Shown: positions 7,393 to 49,640 of the stretch, in pieces | Position numbering within the stretch: the stretch's first letter is position 1 | How the letters are laid out: the number at the start of each line of letters is the position of its first letter | DNA from: an uncultured Nocardioides sp. | GTDB lineage: Bacteria > Actinomycetota > Actinomycetes > Propionibacteriales > Nocardioidaceae | Direction: 5' to 3' | Assembly: GCF_947489365.1 (NCBI RefSeq) | Contig: NZ_CANLDB010000006.1 | Span: forward strand, 1-64,000 | Length of the DNA: 64,000 bases | The notes under the pieces: model-generated | What the model saw: only the letters and a program-made list of their open reading frames with translations | The model's database searches: none | Told to the model about the DNA's origin: nothing | Position numbers and translations under genes: made by a program

Positions 7393-8250
7393 GTGCCCGA
7401 GGGAGACAGCGTCTACAAGAACGCGCGGAAGCTCGACCGCGTGCTCGCCGGGCGCGTCCTGGAGCGGGGCGACCTGCGGGTGCCGCAGCTCGCGACGACC
7501 TCGCTCGCGGGCCGGACCGTGCTCGGCCACGACTCGCACGGCAAGCACCTCCTCACGCGCTTCTCCGGCGGGCTGACGCTGCACAGCCACCAGAAGATGG
7601 AGGGGACCTGGAAGACGACCGGGCCCGGCAAGCGGCTGCCGCGCCACTTCATGGACGACGTGCGGGTGCTGCTCGCCGCGGAGGGCGCGGGGACGGCGTA
7701 CGGGCTGCGGCTCGCGGTCGTCGAGCTGGTCGAGACGGCGAAGGAGCACGAGGTGGTCGGTTACCTCGGCCCCGACCCGCTGCGGGAGGACTGGGACGCC
7801 GCCACCGCGGTCGCGAACTTCCGCGCCCAGCCGCAGCGGCAGCTCGCCCCGGCGATGCTCGACCAGCGGATCATGGCCGGCCTCGGCAACCTCTGGGCCA
7901 ACGAGCTGGCCTTCCTGCTCGGCCACTCCCCGTGGACGCCGGTGGCCGACGTGGACGTCGACCGGATGGTCGCGCTGGCCGCGAAGGCGCTGCGGCACTC
8001 CGCGCTGGTCAAGGACGCCTACCAGGTGACGACGGGCGTGAACCGGCCCGGTCAGTCGCACTGGGTGATCGGACGGGGCGGCAAGCCGTGCCGCCGCTGC
8101 GGCACGGAGGTCAGGCAGGTCCAGGCCCTGGTGAACTCCCCCGACCACCGGCGGACGTCGTGGTGCCCGCACTGCCAGCCCGGCCCGGGGCCCGAGACGC
8201 GCGCGGAGGGCGGGAGCGTGCCGCTCCCGCCCTCCGACGCCCGCGCCTAG
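7393..8250 (+). CDS. nei2: Fpg/Nei family DNA glycosylase (endonuclease VIII-like)
   Basis: This enzyme excises oxidised bases and cuts the abasic site. GTG 7393 is preferred over ATG 7384 because it gives the obligatory MPEGDS start, in which Pro2 becomes the catalytic N-terminal amine and Glu3 is essential. The beta-hairpin Lys is in GHDSHGKHLL. The helix-two-turn-helix has the segment ILDQRIMAGLGN-like MLDQRIMAGLGNLWANE. The C-terminal zinc finger is intact (CRRCG, then CPHC). At about 285 residues it fits mycobacterial Nei2. Its TAG stop overlaps the terC stop on the other strand. Confidence 0.92.
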   Translation: MPEGDSVYKNARKLDRVLAGRVLERGDLRVPQLATTSLAGRTVLGHDSHGKHLLTRFSGGLTLHSHQKMEGTWKTTGPGKRLPRHFMDDVRVLLAAEGAGTAYGLRLAVVELVETAKEHEVVGYLGPDPLREDWDAATAVANFRAQPQRQLAPAMLDQRIMAGLGNLWANELAFLLGHSPWTPVADVDVDRMVALAAKALRHSALVKDAYQVTTGVNRPGQSHWVIGRGGKPCRRCGTEVRQVQALVNSPDHRRTSWCPHCQPGPGPETRAEGGSVPLPPSDARA

Positions 8251-9275
8251 GTCCCGGCCGTCTCCAGCGGACACCGCCGGAACGCGGTGGTCACCTCGGC
8301 GTCCTCCTCGGCCGTCGCGACCCGGAACGGCGGGTCCTCGGGCTCGGGGGCCGCGACGCGGGCCTGGCCGCGGGTCCGCCACATGCTGGCGCCGATCGCG
8401 ACGGCGAGGACGGTGGCGATCACCGCGAGCGAGATCGTCGTGGGGACCTTGTAGAGGTCGACCTGGAGGGCCATCTTGATCGCGACCCAGATCAGCACCA
8501 CCGCGAGCCCGAGCTTGAGGTAGATGAAGCGGTGCATGAGGTCGGCGAGCAGGAAGTACATCGCCCGCAGGCCGAGCAGCGCGAAGGCGTTGGCGGTGAA
8601 CACCAGGAACGGCTCGGAGGTCACCGCGAAGATCGCGGGGATCGAGTCGACCGCGAAGACCACGTCGGTCACCTCGACCAGCACGAGGACCAGCAGCAGC
8701 GGCGTCGCCAGGAGGGCACCGCGACGGCGGACGAGGAAGCGCTGGCCGTGGTAGGTGTCCGTCATCGGCACGGCGCGGCGGAACCAGCGCACGACCTTCG
8801 AGGTCGACGGGTCCATGTGGTCGTTGCGCGTGCGGATCATCTGCACGCCCGTGAACGCCAGGAACGCGGCGAAGACGTAGAGCACCGCGCTGAACAGGTC
8901 GATCACCGCGGACCCGGCGGCGATGAACCCGCCGCGGAGCACGAGCGCGCCGACGACGCCGAGGAACAGCACCCGGTGCTGCAGCTCCCGCGGGACGGCG
9001 AAGAACGTGAAGATGATCGCCCAGACGAAGACGTTGTCGACGGCAAGCGACTTCTCGATCAGGTAGCCGGCGAAGTACTGCTGGCCGAGCTCCGCGCCGT
9101 ACGCGAACCAGATCCAGGCGCCGAACCCGACGCCGATGGCGACCCAGACCGCGGACCACGCGGCGGCCTCGCGGACGCCGATGACGTGGGCGCGACGGTG
9201 GGCGAACAGGTCGACGGCGAGCATCGCGACGATGCCGCCGAGGACGGCGAACCAGAGCCACAAGGGCACGTCCAT
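8247..9275 (-). CDS. TerC/Alx family membrane protein (probable Mn2+ exporter)
   Basis: A 342-residue integral membrane protein with about eight or nine hydrophobic helices. Family signatures include the acidic membrane segments AMLAVDLFAH, VDNVFVWAIIFTFF and EVTDVVFAVDSIPAIFAVT, whose Asp residues are the likely ion site. TerC/Alx proteins export Mn2+ or act in metallating secreted enzymes. The start has GGGAGG 5 nt upstream. That Shine-Dalgarno lies in a hairpin fed by a yybP-ykoY type leader, which supports the manganese role. It converges with nei2, sharing CTAG as the stop for both genes. Confidence 0.92.
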   Translation of the reverse strand: MDVPLWLWFAVLGGIVAMLAVDLFAHRRAHVIGVREAAAWSAVWVAIGVGFGAWIWFAYGAELGQQYFAGYLIEKSLAVDNVFVWAIIFTFFAVPRELQHRVLFLGVVGALVLRGGFIAAGSAVIDLFSAVLYVFAAFLAFTGVQMIRTRNDHMDPSTSKVVRWFRRAVPMTDTYHGQRFLVRRRGALLATPLLLVLVLVEVTDVVFAVDSIPAIFAVTSEPFLVFTANAFALLGLRAMYFLLADLMHRFIYLKLGLAVVLIWVAIKMALQVDLYKVPTTISLAVIATVLAVAIGASMWRTRGQARVAAPEPEDPPFRVATAEEDAEVTTAFRRCPLETAGT

Positions 9276-9306: not shown

Positions 9307-9412
9307 CTCCCCCGGCTGCCCGAGCGACGGGCGGCCCGGCCACACCGGGCGCCGTGGGGCGCCGTACTGACGACGTGGCCGTGGGTGGGGTACTCCCCTC
9401 CACTGCCCCTCC
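9295..9412 (-). promoter_or_regulatory. yybP-ykoY (manganese) riboswitch upstream of terC
   Basis: Reading towards terC, the leader contains GGGGAGTACCCC, then CACGTCGTCAGTACGGC, a GC hairpin (GGCGCC/GGTGTGG region), and finally CCGGGGGAGACCTCCGG about 25 nt before the start. The GGGGAGTA and GGGGGAGACC boxes flanking a hairpin pair are the hallmark of the yybP-ykoY Mn2+ riboswitch, which commonly precedes TerC-type genes. The limits are estimated from these boxes, not from a covariance model. Confidence 0.8.
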
Positions 9413-9438: not shown

Positions 9439-10401
9439 TCAAGCAGATGTGGCGGAGGCCATGCGGTCCGCCGTACGACGCAGCGCCGGGGCGAGCTCGC
9501 CGGCGTCCTCGACCACGTAGTCGGCGTCGAGGGCGGCGAGCAGCATCGCCGGCCACGCGGGCCAGTCGCTGGCGATCACCAGGCGGCACTCGCCCTCGCC
9601 CAACGGCTCCACCTCGGCCTCGCCCCACACCATGCGCCGGACGTCCTCGGCGGGAGCGGCGACGCGGGCACGGACGGCGTACCGCATCGGCATGCGGCTG
9701 ATGCCCTGACGCACGAAGGTGGTGGCGTCCTCGGCGGGCAGCTCCCGGGGCGCGAACCTCGCCCCGGTGGGGGCCGGCTCGCTGATCCGGTCGACGCGGA
9801 AGGAGCGCCAGTCGCGGCGGTCGCGGTCCCAGGCGACGAGGTACCAGCGGCGGCCCAGGGTGACGAGCCGGTGGGGCTCGGCGCGCCGACGGCTGGGCTC
9901 GTCGGCGCCGCGGGCGGTGTAGGCGAAGGTGAGCGTCTCGCCGTCGCGGGCGGCCTGCGCGAGCGTGGTGAGGACGGCCGCGTCGAGCACCGGGCCGGTG
10001 CCCGGTCCGGGCGCGGGGTCGGTCGCCGCCGCCAGCGCGTCGAGGCGGCGCCGCAGCCGGGGCGGCATCATCGCGACCACCTTGCTCAGCGCCTGGACCG
10101 ACGTCTCCTCCAGCCCGCGGACCGCCCCCGCGGCCGACGTCCGCAGGCCCACCGCGATCGCCACGGCCTCCTCGTCCTCGAGCAGCAGCGGCGGCATCGA
10201 CCCGCTGCCCGCCCGGAGCTGGTAGCCGCCGGCCACCCCGCGGGCAGCGTCGACGTCGTACCCGAGGTCGCGCAGGCGCTCGACGTCGCGGCGCAGCGTG
10301 CGGGGGCTGACCTCGAGACGCTCGGACAGCTCGGCGCCCGGCCAGTAGCGGTGGGTCTGCAGCAGGGAGAGCAGACGGAGCATCCGGGCGCTGGTCGACA
10401 T
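9439..10401 (-). CDS. Helix-turn-helix WYL-domain transcriptional regulator (YafY type)
   Basis: A 320-residue regulator. The N-terminus (MSTSARMLRLLSLLQTHRYWPGAELSERL) is an HTH_11/DeoR-like winged helix with SPRTLRRDVERLRDLGY as the recognition region. The centre, near residues 140-210, is a WYL domain with GRRWYLVAWDRDRRDWRSFR, where the name-giving residues appear as WYL. A WCX-like C-terminal extension follows. WYL domains sense small ligands or nucleotides. It is divergent from the DrrAB exporter and shares a 62-bp control region with it, so that operon is the obvious target. A -10 box TAATCT lies 6 nt before its ATG. Confidence 0.9.
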   Translation of the reverse strand: MSTSARMLRLLSLLQTHRYWPGAELSERLEVSPRTLRRDVERLRDLGYDVDAARGVAGGYQLRAGSGSMPPLLLEDEEAVAIAVGLRTSAAGAVRGLEETSVQALSKVVAMMPPRLRRRLDALAAATDPAPGPGTGPVLDAAVLTTLAQAARDGETLTFAYTARGADEPSRRRAEPHRLVTLGRRWYLVAWDRDRRDWRSFRVDRISEPAPTGARFAPRELPAEDATTFVRQGISRMPMRYAVRARVAAPAEDVRRMVWGEAEVEPLGEGECRLVIASDWPAWPAMLLAALDADYVVEDAGELAPALRRTADRMASATSA

Positions 10402-10407
10402 GGTCCG

Positions 10408-10413
10408 AGATTA
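10408..10413 (-). promoter_or_regulatory. -10 box of the WYL regulator (leaderless)
   Basis: TAATCT lies 6 nt upstream of the ATG at 10401. It is 11 bp from the palindrome at 10425-10439. Confidence 0.5.
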
Positions 10414-10424
10414 CGTCCGAAAGA

Positions 10425-10439
10425 GGTCAGAAGCTGACC
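10425..10439. promoter_or_regulatory. Palindromic operator between the WYL regulator and drrA-type genes
   Basis: GGTCAGAAGCTGACC is a perfect 6-bp inverted repeat with a 3-nt centre. It lies exactly 11 bp from each of the two divergent -10 boxes (10408-10413 and 10451-10456), so a bound protein would cover both -35 regions. The WYL regulator is the likely ligand; this is inference from position. Confidence 0.6.
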
Positions 10440-10450
10440 GCTTGTCTTCC

Positions 10451-10456
10451 TAGCGT
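10451..10456 (+). promoter_or_regulatory. -10 box of the ABC exporter operon (leaderless)
   Basis: TAGCGT lies 7 nt upstream of the ATG at 10464, and no Shine-Dalgarno is present. Confidence 0.5.
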
Positions 10457-10463
10457 GGTCGTC

Positions 10464-11489
10464 ATGACGACGACACCAGTGATCCAGACCAGAGGCCTGA
10501 CGAAGACCTTCCGGGCGGGCAGACGCACCGTCGAGGCCGTCCGCGGGCTCGACCTGAGCATCGCGCAGGGCGAGCTCGTCGCGCTCCTCGGCCCCAACGG
10601 CGCGGGCAAGTCGACGACCCTGCGGATGCTCACCACCCTGCTCCCGCCCACGTCGGGGACCGCGCACGTCGCCGGTCACGACGTCGTGGCCGAGCAGTAC
10701 GCCGTCCGCCGGGCCATCGGGTACGTCGGCCAGGGCAACGGCGCCGGGCACCAGCAGCACGGCCGCGACGAGCTCGTCTCGCAGGCGCGGGCGCACGGGC
10801 TGTCCCGCGCCGACGCACGCCGGCGGGCCGAGGAGCTGATCGCCGACCTCGACCTCGGCGCGGTCGCCGACCGCAAGGCGCTGAGCCTGTCCGGCGGCCA
10901 ACGGCGCCGGCTCGACATCGCGCTGGGGCTCGTGCACACCCCGCGGGTGCTGTTCCTCGACGAGCCGTCCACCGGCCTCGACCCGCAGAACCGGGCCAAC
11001 CTGCAGGACCTGGTCCGACGGCTGCACCGCGACACCGGCAGCACGGTCGTCCTCACGACGCACTACCTGGAGGAGGCCGACGCCCTCGCCGAGCGCGTGG
11101 TCGTCGTCGACCACGGGCAGGTCATCGCCGACGACACGGCGTCCGCGCTTAAGTCCGGGCTCGGTGACCTCGTCGTCCTCGGGCTCGCGGACGGCGACGC
11201 CGCCGCGCGGGCCGCCGTCCGGGCGGAGCGGCTGCGGGGCCACGACGGGCAGCGCCCGGTGGTCACCGTGACCGGCGACGAGGTCGCGGTCCGCGTGGCC
11301 CACGGGCGGGAGTCGGCGCCGGGACTGGTCGCCGAGCTGGCCGCCGCCGGGGACGTCGTACGCCGCCTCGAGGTCGTCGGGCCGACCCTCGACGACGTCT
11401 TCCTGGACCTGACCGGGCGCAGCCTGCGCGAGAACCAGTCCACCCCCACCGGCACCCGGACCACCACCAGCGAGGAGATCGCCGCATGA
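10464..11489 (+). CDS. ABC transporter ATP-binding protein, DrrA (daunorubicin-resistance) type
   Basis: A 341-residue ATPase of an ABC-2 type exporter. Walker A is GPNGAGKST, the signature is LSGGQRRRLDIALGL, Walker B is VLFLDEPSTGLD, and the H-loop is TTHYLEEAD. An extra C-terminal domain of about 100 residues is usual for the DrrA subfamily. ATG 10464 is preferred to the in-frame GTG at 10455, which would overlap the -10 box. The stop overlaps the start of the permease gene (ATGA), so they are translationally coupled. The substrate is unknown; drug or lipid export is typical of the family. Confidence 0.92.
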   Translation: MTTTPVIQTRGLTKTFRAGRRTVEAVRGLDLSIAQGELVALLGPNGAGKSTTLRMLTTLLPPTSGTAHVAGHDVVAEQYAVRRAIGYVGQGNGAGHQQHGRDELVSQARAHGLSRADARRRAEELIADLDLGAVADRKALSLSGGQRRRLDIALGLVHTPRVLFLDEPSTGLDPQNRANLQDLVRRLHRDTGSTVVLTTHYLEEADALAERVVVVDHGQVIADDTASALKSGLGDLVVLGLADGDAAARAAVRAERLRGHDGQRPVVTVTGDEVAVRVAHGRESAPGLVAELAAAGDVVRRLEVVGPTLDDVFLDLTGRSLRENQSTPTGTRTTTSEEIAA

Positions 11490-12307
11490 GCACCCTGACC
11501 CCACCCGCCTCCCCGACCACCGGCGACGTCCCCGTCGGCGACGCGCCGTCCCGGACGAGCTGGCTCGCCGACACCCTCAACGTCGCCGTCCGCGAGCTGC
11601 GGCCGATGCTGCACGAGCCCGCGAACGTGCTGTTCGCGATGGTGCAGCCGCTGGTCTTCCTGGGGCTGTTCGCACCCCTGCTGCCCGACGTCCCGGGCGG
11701 CACCTCGGCGCTGCAGTGGTTCGTGCCCGGCATCGTGGTGATGACCGCGCTGATGGGCGCCTCGATGACCGGCGCGAACCTGTCGGAGGAGATGCTCACC
11801 GGCTCCCACGAGCGGCTCCTCGTCTCGCCGCTGCGACGGTCGTCGCTGATGGTCGGCCGGGCCGTGAAGGAGGTCGCGCCGGCGCTCGCGCAGACCGCGA
11901 TCATCGTCGCGGTCGTCACGCCGTTCTCCTTCGACCTCCACCCGCTCGGCGTGCTCACCGGGGTCGCGATGCTCGCGCTGTTCGCGGTCGGGATCGGCTC
12001 GCTGTCGTTCGCGCTCGCCCTGGTCGCTGGCGGTGAGCAGTGGATCTTCTGGACCGTGCAGCAGACGTTCCTCTTCCCGGTGCTCCTGCTCGCCGGGGTG
12101 CTGCTCCCCCTCGAGGGCGCCCCGACCTGGCTGGCCGTGGCCGCCGACCTCAACCCCGTGACGTACGTCGTCGACGCCGAGCGGGCACTCTTCGCCGGCC
12201 AGTTCCCCGCCGCCGACGTCCTCGCCGGGTTCGCCGGCGCCGCCGCGGTCGCCGTCCTCGGCCTCCTCGTCGGTCTCCGCGCCATGCGGCGGTCCGGGAC
12301 GCGCTGA
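11486..12307 (+). CDS. ABC-2 type exporter permease, DrrB type
   Basis: A 273-residue membrane subunit with a hydrophilic N-terminus of about 45 residues (TPPASPTTGDVPVGDAP region) and six predicted membrane helices. The family pattern is visible in ANVLFAMVQPLVFLGLFAPLL, the QWFVPGIVVMTALMGASMTG helix, the cytoplasmic EEMLTGSHERLLVSPLRRS coupling segment and FLFPVLLLAGVLLPLEGAP. It pairs with the upstream ATPase to form the exporter. The start overlaps the upstream stop by 4 bp. A strong hairpin follows the gene. Confidence 0.92.
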   Translation: MSTLTPPASPTTGDVPVGDAPSRTSWLADTLNVAVRELRPMLHEPANVLFAMVQPLVFLGLFAPLLPDVPGGTSALQWFVPGIVVMTALMGASMTGANLSEEMLTGSHERLLVSPLRRSSLMVGRAVKEVAPALAQTAIIVAVVTPFSFDLHPLGVLTGVAMLALFAVGIGSLSFALALVAGGEQWIFWTVQQTFLFPVLLLAGVLLPLEGAPTWLAVAADLNPVTYVVDAERALFAGQFPAADVLAGFAGAAAVAVLGLLVGLRAMRRSGTR

Positions 12308-12313
12308 GGCGCG

Positions 12314-12378
12314 AGTCCCAGGGGCCCCACCCGCCTCGGGTTTCACGGGTCAACCCGTGAAACCCGTGGCCCCTGGGA
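12314..12378. terminator. Nested inverted repeats between convergent genes
   Basis: An outer perfect 12-bp inverted repeat (GTCCCAGGGGCC at 12314-12325 with GGCCCCTGGGAC at 12367-12378) encloses an inner perfect 13-bp repeat (GGGTTTCACGGGT at 12337-12349 with its complement at 12352-12364). There is no T tract. It lies between the permease and the convergent small membrane gene, so a bidirectional terminator is likely. Confidence 0.65.
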
Positions 12379-12416
12379 CGCGTGGGACGAACGCGTGGGA
12401 CGAACGCGTGGGACGA
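12379..12416. repeat. 13-bp tandem repeat (3 copies)
   Basis: GCGTGGGACGAAC occurs at 12379 and 12392 and, one base shorter, at 12405. It extends one arm of the neighbouring hairpin (TGGGACG) and looks like local slippage. Confidence 0.8.
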
Positions 12417-48458: not shown

Positions 48459-49541
48459 TCATCGGCTGGTGACGTCGCTCCACTGCGCGAGCAGGTCGGC
48501 CCGCTCGGCGGCGACGGCGTCCGGGTCGAGGGCGTACGGCGAGTCCGGCCGCTCGGCGTACGACGCCCAGTCGCGGGGAAGGTCGACGTCGTCGCGGACC
48601 GGGAAGACGTACATCGACGTCGGCAGCTCGGCCTGGACACGACTGCTGAGCAGCCAGTCGACGACCCGCTCGGCGCCGACGGGGTTCTCGGCGTTCTCGA
48701 GCACCCCGGCGTACTCGACCTGCTGGTAGCAGGTGTCCAGCAGCGCCGCGGTGGTCGTCGCGTCGCCGTCCTCGGTGAGCGTGAACGCCGGGGAGGAGTC
48801 GTAGGACACGACGATCGGCCGGTCCCCGCCACCGCCGCCCGCGGTGAAGTCGACCTGGTAGGCGTCGGACCAGCCGGGGACGATCTCGACGCCGTTGGCG
48901 ACGAGGTCCTCCCAGTACGTCGGCCAGTCGTCGCCGTACTCGTCGACGGTGGCCAGCAGGAACGCCAGGCCGGGGCTCGAGGTGGGGGCGCCGGGGACGA
49001 CGAGCAGGTCGCGGTACGCCGGGTCGGTGAGGTCGTCGAGGCTGGCCGGCGGCTCCTGGTCGCGCTCGGCGAACCACTGCTCGTCGACGTTGACGCAGAC
49101 GTTGCCCTCGTCGACCGGCGCCAGCCGGTCCGCGCCGTCGGGCAGGACGAACTCGTCGGCGCCCGGCGGCAGCTCGGCGTCGTACGGCGCGAACACGTCC
49201 TCCTCGAGCGCGCGGGAGGCGAAGGTGTTGTCGACGCCGAACGCGACGTCCCCGATGGGGTCGTCCTGGGTCAGCACGAGGCGGTTGGTGAGGGACCCGG
49301 CGTCGCCGGAGGCGCGCTGGACGAGGTCGATGCCCGACTCGGCCTCGAAGTCGGCGACCAGCCGCTTCGGCAGCGCGTAGGAGTCGTGGGTGACGAGGAC
49401 GACGCGGCCGGTGCCGTCGCCGCGCTGGGCGTCGGTGACCTCGCCCGGGTCGTCGTCCGCGGCGAGCAGCGTGCAGCCGCTCGCGAGGAGGCCGAGGGTG
49501 ACGACGGAGGCCGTGGTGGTCAGGAGCGTGCGTGCGCGCAC
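48459..49541 (-). CDS. thiB: Thiamine ABC transporter substrate-binding lipoprotein
   Basis: A 360-residue periplasmic-type binding protein held by lipid. The signal ends in the lipobox LLASGC with Cys23. The body has VVLVTHDSYALPKRLVADFE, the GDVAFGVDNTFASRALEE segment typical of ThiB, and DLLVVPGAPTSSPGLAFLL. GTG 49541 is chosen because it follows GGGAG by 7 nt and lies directly behind the TPP aptamer. It is the first gene of thiBPQ. Confidence 0.94.
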   Translation of the reverse strand: MRARTLLTTTASVVTLGLLASGCTLLAADDDPGEVTDAQRGDGTGRVVLVTHDSYALPKRLVADFEAESGIDLVQRASGDAGSLTNRLVLTQDDPIGDVAFGVDNTFASRALEEDVFAPYDAELPPGADEFVLPDGADRLAPVDEGNVCVNVDEQWFAERDQEPPASLDDLTDPAYRDLLVVPGAPTSSPGLAFLLATVDEYGDDWPTYWEDLVANGVEIVPGWSDAYQVDFTAGGGGGDRPIVVSYDSSPAFTLTEDGDATTTAALLDTCYQQVEYAGVLENAENPVGAERVVDWLLSSRVQAELPTSMYVFPVRDDVDLPRDWASYAERPDSPYALDPDAVAAERADLLAQWSDVTSR

Positions 49542-49546
49542 GGGGT

Positions 49547-49640
49547 GACTCCCTTCGCCGGTGTGAACCGGAGCAGGTTCGGAGGGTCTGCGGCTCGCCC
49601 GCACTCTCAGCACGTCACGCGTGCTCCCCTGTCTGGACCT
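49547..49640 (-). promoter_or_regulatory. TPP riboswitch (THI element) of thiBPQ
   Basis: On the minus strand the leader contains GGGGAGCACG, the invariant GCTGAGAGTGCGGG, then CCGCAGACCCTCCGAACCTG and GGTTCACACCGGCGAAGGGA. These are the conserved blocks of the TPP riboswitch in the right order. The last GGGAG is also the thiB Shine-Dalgarno, so regulation is probably at translation. A TAGGCT -10 box lies just upstream at 49642-49647. Confidence 0.92.

Follow-up and report, generated by a model that had tools for sequence, protein, structure and literature searches.

A conserved dyad, very probably the operator of a WYL-domain regulator, between two divergent −10 elements at a DrrAB-like exporter operon of Nocardioides

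Described WYL systems and the Nocardioides locus

Three described WYL systems are activators. SiwR of Mycobacterium smegmatis is a WYL homodimer that activates an adjacent dinB-like operon, and according to excerpts of PMC10693628 its site, in an intergenic region of about 60 bp, is a 19-bp imperfect palindrome located between the −35 and the −10, with a requirement for the −26 region. DriD of Caulobacter crescentus, as presented in part of a preprint (PMC12340889), is an activator whose pseudo-palindrome overlaps a poor −35 and keeps a fixed distance to the −10; its own promoter is bidirectional, and the divergent operon is activated but the DriD gene itself is not. In mycobacteria, the activator PafBC works by sigma adaptation, which takes the place of −35 recognition, and it employs a −26 motif; arginines of its WYL domains bind ssDNA (excerpts of PMC11804915). 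BrxR and CapW, on the other side, are WYL repressors (excerpts of PMC10693628), both of phage-defence operons. The earlier note on the DNA studied here held that few WYL operators are well defined, but they are less unknown than it stated, as sites for SiwR and DriD have been published (PMC10693628 and PMC12340889, each in excerpt).

We examined a 64,000-nucleotide stretch of DNA from an uncultured Nocardioides sp. (contig NZ_CANLDB010000006.1), hereafter the window, in which a gene for a WYL-domain regulator and an operon resembling that of the DrrAB daunorubicin exporter diverge from a gap of 62 bp that holds a palindrome and both −10 elements (Table 1). The palindrome consists of fully complementary 6-bp arms around a 3-bp centre (centre base 10432), and exactly 11 bp separate it from the −10 hexamer on either side. 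It had previously been noted as perfect, centred and 11 bp from each −10, a description that is exact to the base. The ATG of the WYL gene (10401) follows its −10 by 6 nt and that of the DrrA gene (10464) follows its own by 7 nt, distances consistent with leaderless transcripts; both genes are probably leaderless, and we infer their transcription starts from these sequence features.

The regulator contains an N-terminal helix-turn-helix (PF08279, HTH_11; 53.3 bits, cut-off 25) and a WYL domain (PF13280; 84.9 bits, cut-off 21.8), and its C-terminus scores 20.9 bits against a cut-off of 23.9 for WCX (PF25583). Its predicted structure has a mean pLDDT of 80.5 and a pTM of 0.49, so that the relative positions of the domains are unsure; helix 33-45 is the presumed recognition helix. 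Chains of PafBC, BrxR, CapW and DriD are the best structural matches. PafBC provides the top whole-model match (9fnd_X, probably the PafB chain; Z 14.3, rmsd 13.1, 269 aligned), and the likeness extends to the arginine pair that PafC uses to bind ssDNA, since R202 and R205 of the window regulator align with PafC R201 and R204 and are invariant in 39 aligned sequences. PafBC differs, as described in excerpts of PMC11804915, in that it is a heterodimer of which only PafB touches the −26 motif, and it does not bind DNA without polymerase. For BrxR and CapW the likeness is that of the WYL fold, judged from structures only (Z 13.9 and 13.5), and the C-domain of DriD (7tzv_A) matches residues 130-320 with Z 12.9 and rmsd 4.9. 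As for the transporter pair, TIGR01188 and TIGR01247, the DrrAB families, are its best NCBIfam matches but both fall under the curated cut-offs (293.5 of 312.45 bits and 94.1 of 223.05 bits, respectively); therefore, the operon can be called DrrAB-like only.

Several further features were seen near the two genes or elsewhere in the window. After the drrB-like gene, at about 12315-12400, lies a long, hairpin-forming inverted repeat (GGGTTTCACGGGT..ACCCGTGAAACCC, with further GC-rich arms), perhaps a terminator, and it is followed by short direct repeats of GCGTGGGACGAAC. A partial match to the yybP-ykoY Mn2+ riboswitch (9338-9380, − strand; 20.2 bits, gathering threshold 45, E 0.0008 in a 301-base search) sits just upstream of a TerC-family gene (8247-9275, − strand), and genes of this type are often controlled by yybP-ykoY riboswitches. 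A TPP riboswitch was detected at 49533-49640 on the − strand (63.5 bits, gathering threshold 54.3).

Table 1. Features of the WYL regulator/DrrAB-like locus, in window coordinates
Feature	Coordinates	Strand	Basis
Core palindrome, GGTCAG-AAG-CTGACC (GGTCAGAAGCTGACC)	10425..10439	none	Sequence; ortholog conservation
25-bp operator frame, AAAGAGGTCAGAAGCTGACCGCTTG here	10420..10444	none	Column profile of 80 divergent ortholog loci; paralogs
−10 of WYL gene, TAATCT, first base 19 bp from dyad centre	10408..10413	−	Sequence; xANNNT at offset 19 in 70/80 ortholog gaps
−10 of drrA-like gene, TAGCGT, first base 19 bp from dyad centre	10451..10456	+	Sequence; xANNNT at offset 19 in 78/80 ortholog gaps
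drrA −35 position at 17-bp spacing, CAGAAG, scarcely like TTGACA; within operator	10428..10433	+	
WYL-domain regulator, 320 aa, probably leaderless	9439..10401	−	HTH_11 and WYL above cut-off, WCX below
Arg38 codon, presumed recognition helix; covaries with half-site ±4	10288..10290	−	
Arg202-Arg205 codons (RVDR), aligned with PafC ssDNA-binding pair R201/R204	9787..9798	−	
DrrA-like ABC transporter ATPase, probably leaderless	10464..11489	+	
DrrB-like ABC-2 permease, 4-bp overlap with drrA-like gene	11486..12307	+	

Conservation of the dyad and placement of the −10 elements

Taken by itself, the repeat proves little. When the 62-bp gap was dinucleotide-shuffled 4000 times, 2% of the shuffles contained a perfect 6-3-6 repeat and 14% a perfect 6-bp repeat with any spacer of 0-10 bp, and the whole window contains 78 perfect 6-3-6 repeats. 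The sequence is not enriched either: the 15-mer itself, allowing as many as 3 mismatches, was found twice in the window against 2.19 expected from shuffles, and the core pattern GGNCAGNNNCTGNCC has 30 matches genome-wide against 39 for its reversed control. At three of these 30 matches, which we inspected, no second target was apparent; those at C3:575968 and C6:170500 fall inside open frames of 571 and 357 aa, respectively, and that at C1:991524 lies under several overlapping frames. A small regulon in the organism's own genome, beyond these three sites, is possible.

The decisive evidence for the significance of the palindrome is its conservation across orthologs. Our set comprised 118 loci, the window among them, of which 102 have distinct upstream DNA; the 16 whose upstream stretch is identical to that of another locus were left out of de-duplicated counts. 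These are the best-scoring loci from a family-wide genome search (best 30), a scan of named genomes (best 80 of 322 relatives) and an order-wide search (best 30), and their genera include Nocardioides, Pimelobacter, Knoellia, Prauserella, Thermobifida, Actinoplanes, Jiangella, Actinomadura and Lentzea. A search with the strict pattern GG.CA.....TG.CC matched 109 of these 118 best-scoring loci, window included; loss of the palindrome from orthologous gaps, which the earlier note had named as a refuting result, was therefore not what we found. Scored over 10 fixed positions, the best match in the 102 distinct loci reaches 10 in 47, 9 in 45, 8 in 9 and 7 in one, and this last locus (L083), which has no convincing site, was omitted from the conservation profiles and, by its score, from the counts of −10 offsets. 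Matches of 9 or 10 thus occur in 92/102 loci vs 0/102 in a downstream control, whose maximum is 8, and 1/102 in a reversed control, which hits 9 once. A chance inverted repeat, an idea encouraged by the 78 repeats in the window and the roughly 2% rate in the gap, is made extremely improbable by this cross-genus conservation against two controls.

What is conserved is larger and less regular than the perfect palindrome seen in the window. The consensus over the 80 loci in which drrA is divergent is a 25-bp dyad, about ATTGCGGnCAGnnnCTGnCCGCAAT (also given as ATTGCGGtCAGaAACTGaCCgcAag), with a −10 on each flank, and the nearest relative, Nocardioides sp. CFH 31398, whose WYL protein is 91% identical, carries GGTCAGGACCTGACC at the same position. 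Of the 102 distinct loci, 20 have a match at each of the six arm pairs, 42 at five, 37 at four and 3 at fewer, which rules out perfect symmetry as the key feature. The earlier description of the site as a perfect palindrome therefore stands for the core in this genome, but the site spans about 25 bp rather than 15 and is fully symmetric in only 20/102 loci. Judged from this conservation, the palindrome is very probably a real operator.

Two variations on the locus were encountered among the orthologs. L030 has tandem operators (GGACAGGAACTGGCC and GGACAGGACCTGACC) upstream of the WYL gene and a longer WYL-drrA gap of 108 bp. Past the 3′ end of the WYL gene in L009 and L019, which come from different genomes, are long, near-perfect hairpins with TAGTCCC..GGGACTA ends, perhaps terminators or a small repeat element.

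The −10 elements hold a fixed place relative to the dyad. Counting duplicates, 83 of 96 loci have a drrA-side TANNNT that starts at exactly 19 bp from the dyad centre, and none of the 96 has one at another offset from 13 to 26, the background being 0.0014 per position. With the first base relaxed, xANNNT stands at offset 19 in 78/80 de-duplicated orthologs on the drrA side and 70/80 on the WYL side, and the highest counts at other offsets from 12 to 26 are 16/80 and 11/80, respectively. Paralogs with a good operator score show it in 73/94 on either side (4/94 and 12/94 at the best other offset); these xANNNT counts omit paralog operators scoring <14 and the re-fetched loci L267-L286. The stricter TANNNT occurs at offset 19 in only 4/52 and 5/59 paralogs, which had suggested that the WYL-side −10 was exclusive to the exporter clade. 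We rejected this, as xANNNT at that place in 73/94 paralogs indicates a geometry common to the whole family, in which the first base is weaker; on the WYL side of paralogs that base is often C or G.

Neither promoter has a recognizable −35. No TTG was found at a spacing of 15-19 in any of the 68 drrA-side or 57 WYL-side promoters that have TANNNT at 18-20 bp, from 80 loci. A −35 hidden within the palindrome was also considered and rejected, the mean best −35 scores lying below those of shuffles (2.54 vs 2.92 and 2.12 vs 2.84). Given −10s at 19 bp and no visible −35, the dyad occupies the expected −35 position of both promoters. A clear −35 is missing from many actinobacterial promoters, and not finding one is therefore weak evidence for an activator.

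The dyad persists where no drrA is adjacent. The 22 ortholog loci so classed (21 distinct ones counted) are those in which tblastn detected no drrA within 600 bp, and in the 21 the dyad is present with xANNNT at 19 bp in 18/21 on the WYL side and 5/21 on the drrA side. Among the five that keep the drrA-side −10, L047 and L052 have weak remnants of a DrrA end (E 0.097 and 0.003), L099 has an exporter-like remnant frame and no intact drrA, and L079 shows no sign of drrA; L076 has just 103 upstream bases, so the presence of drrA there cannot be judged. This pattern ties the dyad to the WYL gene and each −10 to the gene that it serves.

Half-site bases and residue 38 of the regulator

Most of the 60 paralog upstream regions, together with later loci, retain the 25-bp frame but differ in the bases at ±3 to ±5. 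Regions scoring <14 (8 of the 60 and some of the later loci) may lack such a site. Among the four paralog neighbours sampled, DinB_2 and mycothiol-S-transferase genes (L165, L171) have GGACA (GGACAG-type) sites in the same frame, an epoxide-hydrolase-type gene has GGAAG and an MFS gene has GGAAC. These half-site bases track residue 38 in the presumed recognition helix: Arg38 goes with C at ±4, and Thr, Asn, Ser or Ala38 go without it. Counted per arm, Arg38 is paired with C at ±4 in 301/302, Asn38 with AAC in 12/20, and Thr, Ser or Ala38 with AAG in 26/34. Across 157 distinct N-termini, 129 combine Arg with C in both arms and 26 combine another residue with C in neither, leaving two ambiguous. 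In a full-length set of 205 loci, which overlaps these N-termini, 195 agree (166 Arg and 29 non-Arg), and the exceptions are 7 Arg loci with no C and 3 with one. The later-fetched loci L200-L266 (n=67; 20 re-fetched loci excluded) gave 46 + 12 in agreement and 9 in disagreement.

Eight of the ten exceptions score <14, so that L248 and L261 remain, and L248 (Arg38 with GGAAC/GGAAA half-sites and an operator score of 14.9) is plausibly a real exception. Twelve of the agreeing Arg rows also score <14, and false sites in GC-rich DNA often have C at ±4, so the agreement of the Arg rows is flattered; the non-Arg rows are not helped in this way. Asn38 also occurs with AAG arms (L220, L226 and L245), making the finer part of the rule loose. 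The association was not built in by the scoring, which used complementarity and is blind to base identity at ±3 to ±5. On the best trees, built with the helix columns removed, the trait switches 5 and 6 times, of which a single change is required by well-supported branches, and independent origins of the switch are thus unproven. A PDB search with the HTH only returned no DriD match onto which residue 38 could be mapped in a solved WYL-DNA complex.

The covariation points to the WYL protein itself as the binder and, with the 109/118 ortholog loci, it lends support to the proposal, already made in the earlier note, that the palindrome is a candidate WYL operator. Self-complementary promoter DNA does arise by itself, and the palindrome could in principle be bound by another transcription factor or be a mere by-product of promoters placed face to face. 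We regard this as very improbable, because the palindrome accompanies the WYL gene also at loci lacking a detected drrA, its sequence varies with residue 38 of the WYL recognition helix, and the conserved half-site bases are unlike −35 or −10 sequence.

Modes of control and their meaning

How a regulator bound at the dyad would act is suggested by the promoter geometry and by analogy with described relatives. With no recognizable −35 and both −10s at 19 bp, we think it fairly probable that a WYL homodimer bound at the dyad substitutes for the −35 of both promoters and activates them. One winged helix-turn-helix would occupy each half-site, with half-site centres 10 bp apart, and the dimer would sit where sigma region 4 would seek the −35 of the two opposed leaderless promoters, supplying the missing upstream contact as DriD and PafBC do. 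The two-fold symmetry of the site would enable one dimer to serve either direction, but, since the polymerase sites overlap, presumably only one direction at a time. The retention of the nucleic-acid-sensing arginines suggests ssDNA, or a related product formed under genotoxic stress, as a possible signal, which would act through the WYL domain to induce the exporter.

Two traits of DriD- and PafBC-type activators, a fixed −10 distance and a poor or absent −35, are found at this locus. The likeness to DriD, as far as excerpts of PMC12340889 describe it, includes a site that overlaps the −35, a fixed distance to the −10, poor −35s and a bidirectional promoter by its own gene. In our placement of DriD promoters printed in those excerpts, xANNNT starts at +19 from the site centre, with G at +17, in both didA (CAAGGT) and CCNA_03891 (CAATCT); the bapE promoter matches the consensus at 7 of 14 positions and gave no usable placement. 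DriD differs, in the same excerpts, in its site (ATACGAC-N7-GTCGTAT), in having a regulon of several promoters and in the lack of self-regulation, whereas here −10s stand at both +19 and −19. SiwR resembles the window regulator, by description in the excerpts of PMC10693628, in being a WYL homodimer with a palindromic site in an intergenic gap of some 60 bp. The sampled paralogs L165 and L171, with their DinB_2 or mycothiol-S-transferase neighbours, add to this likeness. However, SiwR targets DinB-type genes and here the neighbour is a DrrAB-like operon, and those excerpts mention no symmetric promoter for SiwR's own gene.

The same operator and dimer could instead work as a classical repressor that covers both −35 regions until a ligand releases it, as do TetR-type efflux regulators, BrxR and CapW. 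Autorepression is usual for divergent regulator-exporter pairs that share one operator, BrxR and CapW are WYL repressors of similar fold, and the strict position of the site could equally reflect occlusion. Yet the lack of TTG at spacing 15-19 (0/68 and 0/57) means that unaided polymerase might bind these promoters poorly, the fixed 19-bp distance is the same as that found for the activator DriD in two promoters (printed in the excerpts of PMC12340889), and SiwR, which of the comparable actinobacterial cases is described best, is an activator (excerpts of PMC10693628). Repression is the main alternative to activation and, in our estimation, the less likely of the two.

The symmetry led the earlier note to suggest that one dimer could control both promoters equally; the control may be unequal. 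In one form of activation, counted within the probability given to it above and itself credible but doubtful, the dimer would activate the exporter and hinder or ignore its own promoter, with polymerase bound one way blocking the other. DriD, which activates the divergent operon and not itself (excerpts of PMC12340889), sets a precedent for such mixed control, and it would fit the somewhat better conservation of the drrA-side −10 (TANNNT in 68/80 vs 57/80, xANNNT in 78/80 vs 70/80) as well as the frequent C or G as first base of the WYL-side −10 in paralogs. However, the WYL-side −10 keeps its 19 bp even without detected drrA (18/21), which suggests that the operator matters to the WYL gene too.

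The new findings are that the operator is conserved and longer than the palindrome, that the −10s stand in mirror symmetry at 19 bp and that the half-site bases covary with residue 38. Among the matches listed from the open-licence literature, neither a WYL regulator of a DrrAB-like operon nor a residue-operator rule for WYL regulators appeared in titles or abstract openings. We tentatively propose, at somewhat below even confidence for the whole, that a large actinobacterial WYL family shares one promoter design, that residue 38 reads the half-site and that the WYL domain senses a damage product. If this is true, a 25-bp dyad would replace the −35 of two opposed promoters with −10s 19 bp from its centre, Arg38 would read C at ±4, with Asn38 mostly paired with AAC and Thr, Ser or Ala38 mostly with AAG, and exporters and detoxifying enzymes would be switched on by damage, not by drug. 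WYL regulators are very common and few of their operators are defined; this locus offers a testable 25-bp site and a fixed geometry of the promoters, and with a specificity rule based on one residue, targets could be assigned to many WYL regulators that are still uncharacterised. It also makes testable the ideas that a single activator dimer may stand in for the −35 elements of two opposed promoters and that exporter-like operons may answer to nucleic-acid damage signals.
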